Assembly (NCBI GenBank): GCA_035939775.1
Contig: DASZFO010000148.1
Location: 1-42,641 of the forward strand
Direction of reading: 5' to 3'
Origin: Pirellulales bacterium
Lineage (GTDB): Bacteria; Planctomycetota; Planctomycetia; Pirellulales; DATAWG01
Length of the DNA stretch: 42,641 bases
The notes under the pieces are model-generated. The model had not been told where the DNA came from. It saw only the letters and a program-made list of their open reading frames with translations, and did no database searches. Of the stretch, positions 33,701 to 38,605 are shown one piece after another. The position numbers were made by a program, and so were the translations under genes. Every line of letters starts with the position of its first letter. The stretch's first letter is position 1.

Positions 33701-35056
33701 TCAATGGGCCGCAAGGATCGGCAGGGCATTAACCGCGTCGGTGACGTTGTATCCCGTGGGGTTGGTGCGTTTGATGTAATCTTCGAACTCGCCGCGGAAT
33801 TTCCGGATCGCGTTCTTCATCGGCCAGGCCGCGCCGTCCGCCAGCCCGCAGATCGTCGTGCCGGGGATGATGCCGATCGAATCGGCGATTTCCAGCAGCA
33901 GGTCGAGGTCGCGGAGCCGGCCGCGGCCGGCCTTGATGCGTTCGAGCATCCGCAGCGCCCAAGCCGTTCCTTCGCGGCATGGAGTGCATTGGCCGCAGCT
34001 TTCGTGCTGGAAGAAGCGGCAACTGTTGTGCAGAAAATCGACGATCGAGACGGTCTCGTCGAGCACGACGACCGCGGCGGTCCCCAGGCCGAGGCAGCCG
34101 ACCTTGCCCGGCCCGGCGAAATCGAGCGGCGTGTCGAGTTCGTCGGCCGACAACAGGCCCATGCTGATCCCGCCGGGGATCGCGGCCTTCGCCTTCCGCC
34201 CTTTCCAAACGCCGCCGCCGTATTCGTCGATCAACTGCCGGCAGGTGATCCCCAGCGGGGCCTCGTAGCAGCCGGGCTTGTTCACGTGACCGCTCAGGCA
34301 ATAAAGCTTGGGCCCGTAGCTCCCCGGATCGCGCGGGTTCTTCGGATCCGCCGGCACTCCGATCGACTTGAACCACTCCGCCCCGCGGCGGGCGATGTGC
34401 GTGACGCAAGCGACCGTCTCGATGTTGTTCACGACCGTCGGCTTGCGGAATAGCCCTTCGACGGCCGGAAACGGCGGCTTGATCCGCGGCCACGCCCGTT
34501 TACCCTCGAGGCTCTCGATCAGGCCCGTCTCCTCGCCGCAGATATAAGCGGCCGCGCCGCGATGGAGGTAGATATCGAGCGAGAATTGGGTGCCGAGAAT
34601 GTTCTTTCCCAAGTAGCCGGCGGCATAACATTCGTCGATCGCGGCCTGCAGGCGCTCGTAGCTGAGCGGATACTCGAAGCGAAGGTAGATATACGCAGTG
34701 GTGGCCCGCGTGGCGTAGCAGGAGATGATGGTTCCTTCGAGCACCTGATGCGGGTCGTCTTCCATTAGGATGCGGTTGTTGAACGTGCCCGGCTCGCTCT
34801 CATCCGCGTTGATGCACATATAGATCGGGCCGGGATGGTCCTTGGGCAGGAAGGTCCATTTCAGCCCGGTGGGAAACCCGGCCCCGCCGCGACCGCGGAG
34901 ATTGCTCTGCTTGACCAGCTCGGTCGTCGCCGGAGGCGTCATCTCCGTCAGCACCTTGCGCAGCGCCGCGTAGCCGCCGGCAGCTTCATACGCGGCCAGC
35001 GTATGGCTGTTCGGCTTTCCGACGTTGGCGAGGAGGACGGGTTCGAAAGTGGGCAT
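33701..35056 (-). CDS. nuoF: NuoF, NADH- and FMN-binding subunit of complex I
   Basis: NADH dehydrogenase site of the peripheral arm, 451 residues from ATG 35056; a GTG at 35080 is the alternative and sits 3-4 bases from the nuoE stop. FMN/NADH motifs are GRGGAGFPTGLKW and CGEETGLIESLEGKR; the N3 cluster motif is ESCGQCTPCREGT with the later Cys in TICGLADG. All key residues of the family are present. It directly follows nuoE. Confidence 0.96.
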   Translation of the reverse strand: MPTFEPVLLANVGKPNSHTLAAYEAAGGYAALRKVLTEMTPPATTELVKQSNLRGRGGAGFPTGLKWTFLPKDHPGPIYMCINADESEPGTFNNRILMEDDPHQVLEGTIISCYATRATTAYIYLRFEYPLSYERLQAAIDECYAAGYLGKNILGTQFSLDIYLHRGAAAYICGEETGLIESLEGKRAWPRIKPPFPAVEGLFRKPTVVNNIETVACVTHIARRGAEWFKSIGVPADPKNPRDPGSYGPKLYCLSGHVNKPGCYEAPLGITCRQLIDEYGGGVWKGRKAKAAIPGGISMGLLSADELDTPLDFAGPGKVGCLGLGTAAVVVLDETVSIVDFLHNSCRFFQHESCGQCTPCREGTAWALRMLERIKAGRGRLRDLDLLLEIADSIGIIPGTTICGLADGAAWPMKNAIRKFRGEFEDYIKRTNPTGYNVTDAVNALPILAAH

Positions 35057-35083
35057 CGGGTTTGGGCACGCGGAGCGCACCTA

Positions 35084-35593: not shown

Positions 35594-36820
35594 TTAGCGG
35601 TCCAATTCCGCCGCGATGATGTTCAGGCTCCCCAGCACGGCTACGATGTCGCTCAGCGTGTGGCCGCGGATCAAATCCGGGAACAAGGCAAAGTGGATGA
35701 ACGAAGGCGGGCGGCAGCGGGCTCGCCAAGCCACGTCGGTGCCGTTTCCCACGAGATAAAAGCCCAGCTCGCCGTTGGGGGCCTCGATCGCCGAATAGCA
35801 CTCGTCGTGCGGCACATTGAACCCGCGGTTGCTCATCTCCAGCTCGAAGTGCGAGATCGTCCCTTCGATCGTCGAATAGACCATGCGCTTGTTCGGCAGC
35901 GCCGTCCGCTCGCCGATCGCCACGTTGATCGGCCCCGACGGCAGGTTCTCGATCGCCTGCGCCACGATCCGCAGGCTCTCCCGCATCTCGCCCATGCGAA
36001 CAAGATAGCGGGCGTAGCAATCTCCCGCCTTCGCGCAACAGATCTGGAAATCGAAATCGGCATACGGCAGTTGCGGCTGCGGCTCGTCCTTGCGGAGATC
36101 GCGAGTCACTCCGCTGGCGCGAGCGACCGGCCCGCTGGCGCTGCGATTGATCGCTTGGTCCTTCGAGAGCACGCCGACTCCCTTGGTGCGATCGATGAAG
36201 ATCCGATTGCGGTTCAAGAGCCGCTCCATGTCGTCGAGCGTCTTGGGGAAGTTCTTGACGAACGCCCTCACCTTCTCGACCACCAGCGGCGTCATGTCGT
36301 ACATCAATCCGCCGACGCGAGTGTAGCTGTTGGTGAACCGCGCGCCGCAGAGGGTCTCGAAAATGTCGTAGAGCACCTCGCGCTGGTAGAAAGCATACAT
36401 GAAGTAAGTAAACGCCCCGGTGTCGAGCCCCGCCGCTCCATTGCAGAGCAGATGATCGCTGATTCGCGACAGCTCGGCGATGATCACGCGGATGTACTGC
36501 GCACGTTTCGGCAGCTCGATTCCCAGCAGCTTCTCGACCGCCCCGTGCCAGGCCACGTTGTTCGACATCGGCGAGATGTAGTTCATCCGGTCGGTGACGG
36601 TGACGTATTGGTTATAATCGAGGCTCTCGCCGAGCTTCTCGAATCCGGAATGGAGATAGCCGATGTCGGGCAGGGCGTCGATCACGCGCTCACCGTCGAG
36701 CTTGAGCACCAGCCGCAGCGTCGTGTGCGTGGCCGGATGCTGCGGGCCGAAATTGAGCGTCCAGACATAGTCTTTCGACTCGTCCTGAAGCATTTCGGGG
36801 TTGGTTGGTGCAATGGCCAT
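35594..36820 (-). CDS. nuoD: NuoD, 49-kDa quinone-site subunit of complex I
   Basis: Quinone-reducing module subunit, 408 residues, homologous to hydrogenase large subunits but without their metal-binding Cys. FGPQHPATH near the start provides the His at the quinone head-group pocket, and IGYLHSGFEKLGE and DRMNYISPMSNN follow. The C-terminus ends in the conserved ...GSLNIIAAELDR. It is separate from NuoC, unlike the fused NuoCD of enterobacteria. Confidence 0.96.
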   Translation of the reverse strand: MAIAPTNPEMLQDESKDYVWTLNFGPQHPATHTTLRLVLKLDGERVIDALPDIGYLHSGFEKLGESLDYNQYVTVTDRMNYISPMSNNVAWHGAVEKLLGIELPKRAQYIRVIIAELSRISDHLLCNGAAGLDTGAFTYFMYAFYQREVLYDIFETLCGARFTNSYTRVGGLMYDMTPLVVEKVRAFVKNFPKTLDDMERLLNRNRIFIDRTKGVGVLSKDQAINRSASGPVARASGVTRDLRKDEPQPQLPYADFDFQICCAKAGDCYARYLVRMGEMRESLRIVAQAIENLPSGPINVAIGERTALPNKRMVYSTIEGTISHFELEMSNRGFNVPHDECYSAIEAPNGELGFYLVGNGTDVAWRARCRPPSFIHFALFPDLIRGHTLSDIVAVLGSLNIIAAELDR

Positions 36821-36829
36821 TCGCGTTGG

Positions 36830-37327
36830 CTATGCGTTCTCCCGCGTGAGCACGGGGAAGTTGTGCCGCTCGCCGCGGCCTTGCAATGGGTAATCCTTTC
36901 GGAGCGGGAAGGCCGTGAATTCTTCTGGAAGCAGAATCCGCCGCAGGTCGGGATGTCCGGCGAAGGTGATGCCGAACATGTCATACACCTCGCGCTCCAT
37001 CCAATTCGCGCCTTCCCAAAGCGGCACGGCCGAGGGAACGGTGAGGTCCGGCTCGTTCAAGAAAGTGCGAACTGTGATTCGCTCGTTCGATTCCGTGCCC
37101 GCCAGTAGGTAGACAAGCCCGAATCGATCGCTCGCCCCGCGATAGTGCAGATAATCGACGCAGGTGATATCGACCAAGAAATCAAATCGCCGCTCACGGT
37201 TGAGGAACTCCAGCACGGCGTAAACCGCGCCTGGCTGAACGACGGCGCGCAGTTCGCCACGAAACTCGCTCGTCTTCACTTCTGGAAAACGGGCCGACAG
37301 CGCGGCGATCGTGGCGGGATCGGTCAT
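36830..37327 (-). CDS. nuoC: NuoC, 30-kDa subunit of complex I
   Basis: Peripheral-arm subunit C, 165 residues. The signature WMEREVYDMFGITFAGHPD and the LLPEEFTAFPLRKDYPLQG end are characteristic. The ATG at 37327 has AAGGATG just upstream. It overlaps no neighbour; the 99-bp gap to nuoB holds an inverted repeat. Confidence 0.95.
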   Translation of the reverse strand: MTDPATIAALSARFPEVKTSEFRGELRAVVQPGAVYAVLEFLNRERRFDFLVDITCVDYLHYRGASDRFGLVYLLAGTESNERITVRTFLNEPDLTVPSAVPLWEGANWMEREVYDMFGITFAGHPDLRRILLPEEFTAFPLRKDYPLQGRGERHNFPVLTRENA

Positions 37328-37359: not shown

Positions 37360-37430
37360 GTAGCTGAATTCGCCAGAATTCAGCCGCATCACGTTTGCAT
37401 CGGCATCGGAATTCTGGCGAATTCCGCTAC
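37360..37430. repeat. GAATTCGCCAGAATTC inverted repeat between nuoB and nuoC
   Basis: GTAGCTGAATTCGCCAGAAT (from 37360) is matched in inverted orientation by ATTCTGGCGAATTCCGCTAC (ending 37430): the 22-bp arms 37360-37381 and 37409-37430 agree at 21 positions. The right arm contains the nuoB stop codon (37427-37429), so the repeat sets the end of NuoB. Confidence 0.88.
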
Positions 37431-37993
37431 AAGATCGGGCTCCGCGCGCCGTCGATCTGCGGCAGCCCGTTGATCTCCACCAGCGCTCGTTTCGGCTGCT
37501 GCCGCTTGGCTGAGTCGAATTCCGTCCCCCGCCGCGTCCCTTCCCGTTGAATCTTGTCTTGTAAATCGATGATCGACTGGATCAATTGTTCCGGCCGCGG
37601 AGGGCAGCCCGGCACATAGATATCAACCGGAATGAATCGATCGATGCCCTGCACGACGCAGTACGTGTCGAACACGCCTCCGGTCGACGCGCAGGCCCCC
37701 ATCGAAATGCACCACTTCGGCTCGTGCATCTGCTGCCAAATCCGCTGCAACACCGGCAGCATCTTCATCACTACGCGCCCGGCGACGATCATCAAATCGC
37801 ACTGCCGCGGGCTGAAGCGAAACACCTCGGCCCCGAAACGGGCGATATCGTGCTTGCTCGCCCCGGTGGCCATCAACTCGATCCCGCAGCAGGCCGTGGC
37901 AAAGGGCATCGGCCAAAGGCTGTTCTTGCGGCACCAACTCGCCAACGCGTCGAGTTGGCTCAACATCACGTTTTCGGGCACTTCTACCGCCAT
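37427..37993 (-). CDS. nuoB: NuoB, N2-cluster subunit of complex I
   Basis: Subunit carrying the terminal [4Fe-4S] cluster N2, which reduces quinone. Ligand motifs: ATACCGIE with the tandem Cys pair, GACASTGG, and PGCPPRPE. 188 residues from ATG 37993, which has AAGGGG seven bases upstream; a TTG at 38014 is less likely. It overlaps the nuoA end by 10 bp. The last residues and stop are inside an inverted repeat. Confidence 0.96.
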
Positions 37994-38421
37994 CGAAATA
38001 CCCCTTTTCGCCAAACATAGACGAAGCCCAGCGCCAGCAAGCCGATAAACACCATCGCCTCGCCAAACACCAGCCCGCGGCTTTGCACCAATCCGTGAGC
38101 GACGGCCGAATCGATTCCCACCAGCGACTGGCCGGCGGCAGCGGCAATTCCGGGGTCTTCGCCGTGCGGCCGACTGGCGACCGCCCAGGGGTAAAGGAAC
38201 AGCAGTTCGACGTCAAATACCAGGAAAGCGATCGCCACTAAGTGGAACCGAACGTCGAACCGCCGCCGCGTGTCGTGGATCGGGTCCATGCCGCTTTCAT
38301 ACGGCATTTGCTTGACGGCCGTCCGCCGCCGCGGAGCTAGCAATTTGGCCGGCATTAACAGAGCAACGGAGAGAAGCGTTGCCAGCACAACGAACAAGAT
38401 GACAGGCAGGATCGTTGCCAT
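37984..38421 (-). CDS. nuoA: NuoA, complex I membrane subunit
   Basis: Small membrane subunit A, 145 residues from ATG 38421; a TTG at 38433 is the longer alternative. Three helices are visible, with the loop [32 protein letters not shown] (fragment [15 protein letters not shown]) where the family usually has a conserved Cys at ECG; here it is ESG. It is the first gene of the nuo operon, with an operator-like palindrome 38-61 bp upstream and a promoter beyond it. Confidence 0.94.
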
Positions 38422-38458: not shown

Positions 38459-38482
38459 ACTTTGTGAATCTTGTCACAAAGT
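38459..38482 (-). promoter_or_regulatory. Rex-type operator upstream of nuoA
   Basis: Perfect inverted repeat ACTTTGTGA-N6-TCACAAAGT. Its core TTGTGA-N6-TCACAA (38462-38479) is the half-site and spacing pattern of Rex, the NADH/NAD+-sensing repressor, and also matches the CRP core TGTGA-N6-TCACA. Location just downstream of a -10 element (about +5 to +28) favours a repressor, and the gene set (complex I) favours Rex. No rex gene is in the window. Confidence 0.72.
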
Positions 38483-38492
38483 AGCCGTAAGA

Positions 38493-38522
38493 ATCCTACC
38501 GACTCGGCGAATCAATCGTCAA
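38493..38522 (-). promoter_or_regulatory. Promoter of the nuo operon
   Basis: On the minus strand TTGACG (38522-38517), an 18-bp spacer and TAGGAT (38498-38493) form a sigma-70-like promoter. The -35 matches five of six positions, the -10 four of six. A start near 38486 would give a leader of about 65 nt with the operator immediately inside it. Confidence 0.6.
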
Positions 38523-38561: not shown

Positions 38562-38605
38562 AAAAAAAAGAACCCTTCGCAGGTGGGGCAGGAACCTACG
38601 AAGGG
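38562..38605 (-). terminator. Minus-strand intrinsic terminator upstream of the nuo promoter
   Basis: On the minus strand CCCTTCGTAGGT (38605-38594) pairs with ACCTGCGAAGGG (38584-38573), 12 bp with one G-U pair, followed by TTC and eight T (38569-38562). On the plus strand the wobble becomes a mismatch and there is no T-run, so the minus strand is the functional one. There is no recognised gene upstream of it on this strand. Confidence 0.8.

Follow-up and report, generated by a model that had tools for sequence, protein, structure and literature searches.

Which protein recognizes the palindrome lying between the predicted promoter of the nuo operon and its first gene in a Pirellulales bacterium, and at what step would that protein act on the transcription of complex I? 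We examined these questions in a window of 42,641 nucleotides from contig DASZFO010000148.1, in the remainder of the source genome, and in related Planctomycetia. Rex control of nuo is already known, and in Gram-positive bacteria the regulation of respiration by Rex is well established. Our literature search, which took in few subscription papers, found no work on Rex in Planctomycetes. The palindrome is very probably the operator of the NADH-sensing repressor Rex controlling nuo, with binding by Rex, control by NADH and repression at this promoter being predicted from the behavior of known Rex proteins.

The palindrome at the nuo promoter

The nuo transcript is read from the minus strand, and the palindrome consists of two 9-bp arms, ACTTTGTGA (38459-38467) and TCACAAAGT (38474-38482), that flank ATCTTG and pair without mismatch, as claimed in a first-pass annotation of this DNA. 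Its core is an exact match to the TTGTGA-N6-TCACAA inverted repeat of Rex operators. In the direction of transcription, TTGACG is followed by an 18-nt spacer, TAGGAT, 10 nt, the operator, and 37 nt that end at the nuoA ATG (38421), which places the operator in the promoter region of a respiratory gene (Table 1). Given the predicted +1, the operator would occupy about +5 to +28, and the placement proposed in the first-pass annotation therefore stands. A start site downstream of the palindrome, which would have spoken against that proposal, is unlikely because most relatives keep a promoter ahead of the palindrome, TTGAC[CG]-N17-TANNAT being conserved at this position in dozens of them.

When three mismatches are allowed, the window contains one match against 0.61 expected, and that match has no mismatches. 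The exact 12-base pattern occurs once in the source genome (an assembly of 6.39 Mb in 384 contigs, 96% complete), at nuo, while the reversed control pattern does not occur at all; at one mismatch the counts are nine and three, respectively. We rejected a chance palindrome on the basis of this exactness, the uniqueness of the site in the genome, and the control-pattern counts in the genome and its relatives.

Table 1. Features of the nuo locus in the window, and other genes of the source genome preceded by predicted Rex sites
Feature	Position	Strand	Basis
-35 box TTGACG	38517..38522	-	TTGAC[CGAT]-(16-18 nt)-TANNNT in most relatives
-10 box TAGGAT	38493..38498	-	+1 near 38486 predicted from promoter sequence
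Rex operator (predicted), ACTTTGTGA-N6-TCACAAAGT	38459..38482	-	exact match; kept upstream of nuoA in relatives
Terminator hairpin (separate), CCCTTCGTAGGTTCCTGCCCCACCTGCGAAGGG + T8	38562..38605	-	precedes the nuo promoter
nuoA (145 aa), opens the nuo operon	37984..38421	-	Pfam PF00507, E 2e-29
nuoB	37427..38014	-	Pfam PF01058
nuoC	36830..37327	-	Pfam PF00329
nuoD	35594..36820	-	Pfam PF00346
nuoF (NADH-binding subunit)	33701..35080	-	Pfam PF01512, PF10589
Rieske protein	locus L005		one-mismatch site upstream
mqnA (menaquinone gene)	locus L006		one-mismatch site 26 nt before the open frame
ATP synthase operon	locus L007		PF09527; one-mismatch site upstream

Rex as the predicted binder

The first-pass annotation had proposed Rex from the core and spacing of the palindrome, a reading that gains support from the motif published for Streptomyces Rex, TTGTGAANNNNTTCACAA (PMC5355995), and from a rex gene in which the sensing residues are present. 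The homologue implied by that proposal was found at one clear locus in the source genome (PF06971, E 3e-16), where the last part of a longer open frame encodes a protein of about 225 aa, counted from the likely ATG. This protein combines winged-helix and Rossmann domains, also matches the NCBIfam Rex models and PF02629, and has Rex proteins as its closest solved structures by sequence (best E 2e-48). It keeps Arg16, Tyr98 and Asp188 of Thermus Rex, which we take to be the NADH-sensing residues, together with the GxGxxG motif of that protein and, in the DNA-binding domain, the QVRKDL stretch. A tRNA gene lies near rex in all six loci scanned (L013, L017, L018, L022, L029, L041), and in G016, G022, G032, G063, G071, G078, G088, G093 and G097 the distance between rex and a CRP-family gene is about 1 kb.

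With NAD+ dominant, a Rex dimer would occupy the operator, about +5 to +28 relative to the predicted nuo start, and would prevent promoter escape or elongation by RNA polymerase, keeping expression of the complex I genes low. A rise in NADH would make Rex let go, so that the nuo operon would be transcribed and NADH re-oxidised. Streptomyces Rex, which binds at nuoA1, atpI, cydA1 and rex-hem, has a regulon (nuoA1-N1, atpIBEFHAGDC, cydA1B1CD and rex-hem) whose operators have the same 18-bp core as the site studied here, and complex I and ATP synthase are kinds of target common to it and the planctomycete sites (PMC5355995). Moreover, Streptomyces Rex protects -3 to +25 at cydA1 (PMC5355995), an operator downstream of the start and therefore in the same position as that of nuo in the window.

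As anticipated in the first-pass annotation, the site also precedes other redox genes. Among eight further one-mismatch sites in the source genome, three stand before respiratory genes, namely those for the Rieske protein, ATP synthase and MqnA (Table 1), four lie inside long open reading frames, where they may be chance occurrences, and the eighth, L010, could be placed in neither group. Across the source genome and its relatives, the targets besides nuo are likewise respiratory (Rieske, ATP synthase, mqnA, nqrA and ferredoxin), with lineages that possess Na+-NQR having the site at nqrA (PF05896). At Rieske promoters the operator lies roughly 7-11 nt past the -10 box with no hairpin, which is the geometry of nuo in the window, and because of this agreement a simple block inside the transcript would hold for the source genome. 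At the atp promoters (L007, L042, L050, L073, L093), 13-14 nt separate the palindrome from TTGAC-N17-TA(G/A)ATT downstream of it, and its centre falls near -61.5, which is the position of a class I activator and atypical for a repressor; Rex may activate at ATP synthase or act differently there. The operators of nqrA (L069, L092, L100, from lineages without a close nuoA homologue) represent a third geometry, directly behind the -35 box and between it and the -10 box. In Streptomyces, the nuo and atp operators both overlap the -35/-10 spacer (PMC5355995), unlike the window nuo operator at about +5 and the atp sites described here.

These positions bear on the notion that the palindrome acts as RNA, folding into a 9-bp stem within the 5' leader instead of serving as a DNA operator. 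Although the palindrome would be transcribed from a start near 38486, its letters are themselves conserved beyond what pairing alone would need, and the same sequence is found elsewhere outside transcripts, upstream of the -35 box at atp and between the -35 and -10 boxes at nqrA; we regard an RNA stem as scarcely credible. It is also highly improbable that a CRP/FNR-family protein binds in place of Rex, even though the core recognized by this family, TGTGA-N6-TCACA, has the same half-sites at the same spacing, a CRP-family protein occurs in about half of the relatives, and the activator-like position of the atp sites would suit CRP. No CRP-type helix-turn-helix (HTH_Crp_2) scores over the cut-off in the source genome, and the single sub-threshold hit resembles a DtxR/MntR-type protein, judged from its sequence. 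Thirty relatives have the sites and rex with no clear CRP protein, most genomes of family f17 have CRP proteins and lack the sites, and the presence of CRP among relatives is unrelated to that of the site (p = 0.82). An operator downstream of the -10 box is, in addition, ill suited to an activator, and the doubt about CRP voiced on this ground in the first-pass annotation was well placed. We rejected CRP as the binder because none was found over the cut-off in the source genome and site presence in relatives is independent of it.

Binding by Rex, by contrast with CRP, is consistent with the distribution of rex and the site, although the counts for sites, rex and leaders among relatives were taken without correction for relatedness. 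Exact sites are present in 72 of 98 genomes of the same order, often several per genome, against four for the control pattern, which appears once in each; rex was found in 75-77 of the 98. Most of the families sampled in Pirellulales have the operator upstream of nuoA, as do, beyond the order, Gemmata sp. IIL30 and Singulisphaera sp. GP187 (Gemmatales and Isosphaerales records). In the ten f17 genomes, rex is absent or divergent, no exact site occurs, and the nuo promoters have no operator. A class-wide sample gives 204 sites against 9 control matches in 120 genomes with rex, and 22 against 20 in family f22, in which none of 55 genomes has rex. The association between rex and the site is weak within the order alone (p = 0.057) and has p = 7e-11 across the class, a value from a test that ignores relatedness and in which one family dominates. 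In family f8 the operator is altered to ACTTTGTGA/ACTTCGTGA-N6-TCACGAAGT, and its nuo leaders (e.g. L121, L122, L124, L128) have the consensus TTCGTGA-N6-TCACGAA and a different promoter (TATAAC).

The operator is therefore kept at orthologous promoters together with rex, apart from 13 draft genomes that have the exact site and no detectable rex (G015, G023, G031, G034, G035, G036, G044, G053, G055, G060, G067, G073, G090); this set takes in both f15 genomes and two of the three f18 genomes. Loss of rex in assembly is plausible for these drafts because the gene often lies near a contig end, frequently about 1.2 kb away. Twelve of 21 loci are within 3 kb of an end compared to 8.1 expected, which is only suggestive of contig-end position as the cause, and some of the 13 genomes may truly lack rex.

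Hairpin and operator in the nuo leaders of relatives

The comparison covered 74 leaders of nuo belonging to three orders within Planctomycetia. In most relatives the order of elements is TTGAC[CG]-N17-TA[CG][CG]AT, a short hairpin, a T-tract and the operator. A strict test for hairpin plus T-tract is passed by 54 of the 74 leaders compared to one of 50 other exact operators, and stems of at least 6 bp ending 14 nt before the operator are found in 52 leaders (shuffled sequences: mean 5.9, largest 13). The distance from the 3' end of the hairpin to the operator has a sharp peak at 13-15 nt, and T makes up a fraction of 0.53-0.85 at -14 to -7 from the operator. Stem sequences differ among leaders and show compensatory change, in that doubly changed pair cells number 36 against 7.9 in shuffles; all seven pairs are involved, and the signal is gone when the partner strand is slid. 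Folding energy is only modestly below that of shuffles (mean z -1.5), and the evidence for the hairpin consequently rests on position and covariation. The leaders of relatives thus contain a G+C-rich covarying stem and a T-tract within the predicted transcript, as in an intrinsic terminator. The simple block pictured in the first-pass annotation would hold for the window, but the terminator-like hairpin present in most relatives was missed.

This arrangement suggests that Rex in most relatives stops polymerase on its way, and not by blocking its binding. The front edge of polymerase lies roughly 15 bp beyond its active site. Given this reach and a Rex footprint of 23-29 nt (PMC5355995), Rex would stall polymerase with the hairpin end or the first part of the U-tract in the active site, where a delay would be expected to benefit a weak terminator. 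Rex bound at the operator would then halt polymerase while the weak leader terminator, about 14 nt away, forms and releases it; NADH would remove Rex, and polymerase would read through. We put forward tentatively, as a possibility that falls a little short of an even chance, that the nuo leader of relatives across Planctomycetia is a Rex-gated terminator and that the window genome is a natural deletion of its terminator half.

Ordinary termination of upstream transcription, with the hairpin and T-tract placed there by chance and Rex blocking as usual, seems to us unlikely. The elements do resemble any intrinsic terminator, and the window nuo and Rieske promoters manage without a hairpin. On the other hand, the hairpin is preceded by a conserved promoter, usually with at least about 7 nt from the -10 box to the stem, and for this reason we place the hairpin inside the transcript. 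Moreover, the distance from hairpin to operator holds at about 14 nt whereas all others vary, including those from the -10 box to the hairpin (mostly 7-22 nt) and from the operator to nuoA (28-154 nt), and only one of 50 other Rex operators has such a hairpin. The fixed helical distance would also suit a bent or cruciform DNA structure that aids Rex binding. We consider this very unlikely given that the other Rex operators, with that one exception, lack the hairpin, that the compensatory changes are RNA-like and include G-U pairs, and that the operator in the window has no hairpin.

No hairpin is found between promoter and operator at nuo in the window, where only 10 nt follow the -10 box and none would fit, and this copy looks like a classical operator at about +5. 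The leader hairpin has probably been lost in the window lineage because G001, the one other genome of the same family compared, has it.

Repressors such as CcpA, CodY and LacI act as DNA-bound roadblocks downstream of a promoter (PMC4132739, PMC10310618), as proposed here for Rex. The roadblocks reviewed in these papers, however, release polymerase through Mfd or possibly Rho, whereas in relatives the operator is preceded, at a fixed distance, by an intrinsic-terminator hairpin. Removing stalled polymerases is, according to a review, the work of Mfd or possibly Rho (PMC10310618), for which the built-in terminator would stand in. Attenuators with a leader terminator share with these leaders a promoter-proximal hairpin and U-tract ahead of the first gene, but relatives show no sign of an antiterminator structure or an RNA-binding protein, and the signal is proposed to come through a DNA-bound repressor. 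The nuo operator of Streptomyces differs again in overlapping the -35/-10 spacer (PMC5355995), whereas that of relatives stands behind a hairpin. Literature on roadblocks and intrinsic terminators, of which few subscription papers were covered, gave no match to this arrangement, and the terminator-operator unit appears to be undescribed. If the proposal is true, intrinsic termination is the means by which a redox repressor bound to DNA exerts its effect in a conserved unit; such a unit would be a natural conversion of a repressor into a switchable terminator and would answer what becomes of polymerases stalled at a repressor.

A separate hairpin upstream of the nuo promoter

A second terminator hairpin, followed by T8, stands upstream of the nuo promoter in the window (Table 1). 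We rejected the idea that this hairpin (38573-38605 without its upstream flank) is a displaced leader hairpin since G001, of the same family, carries both elements separately. In f17 genomes, which have no operator, the leader hairpin was not found, and terminators there are mostly of this separate upstream type. Rfam gave no match for either the leader or the upstream hairpin. The upstream hairpin is probably the 3' end of an undescribed small RNA outside the Rex switch. This candidate, which would extend about 60-70 nt further upstream on the minus strand, has a first hairpin that varies and follows a -10-like box, and a terminator-hairpin loop, GTTCCTGCCCCRCC, that is almost invariant. It is found upstream of nuo in several families, as a single copy in the source genome and as three tandem copies in G021.
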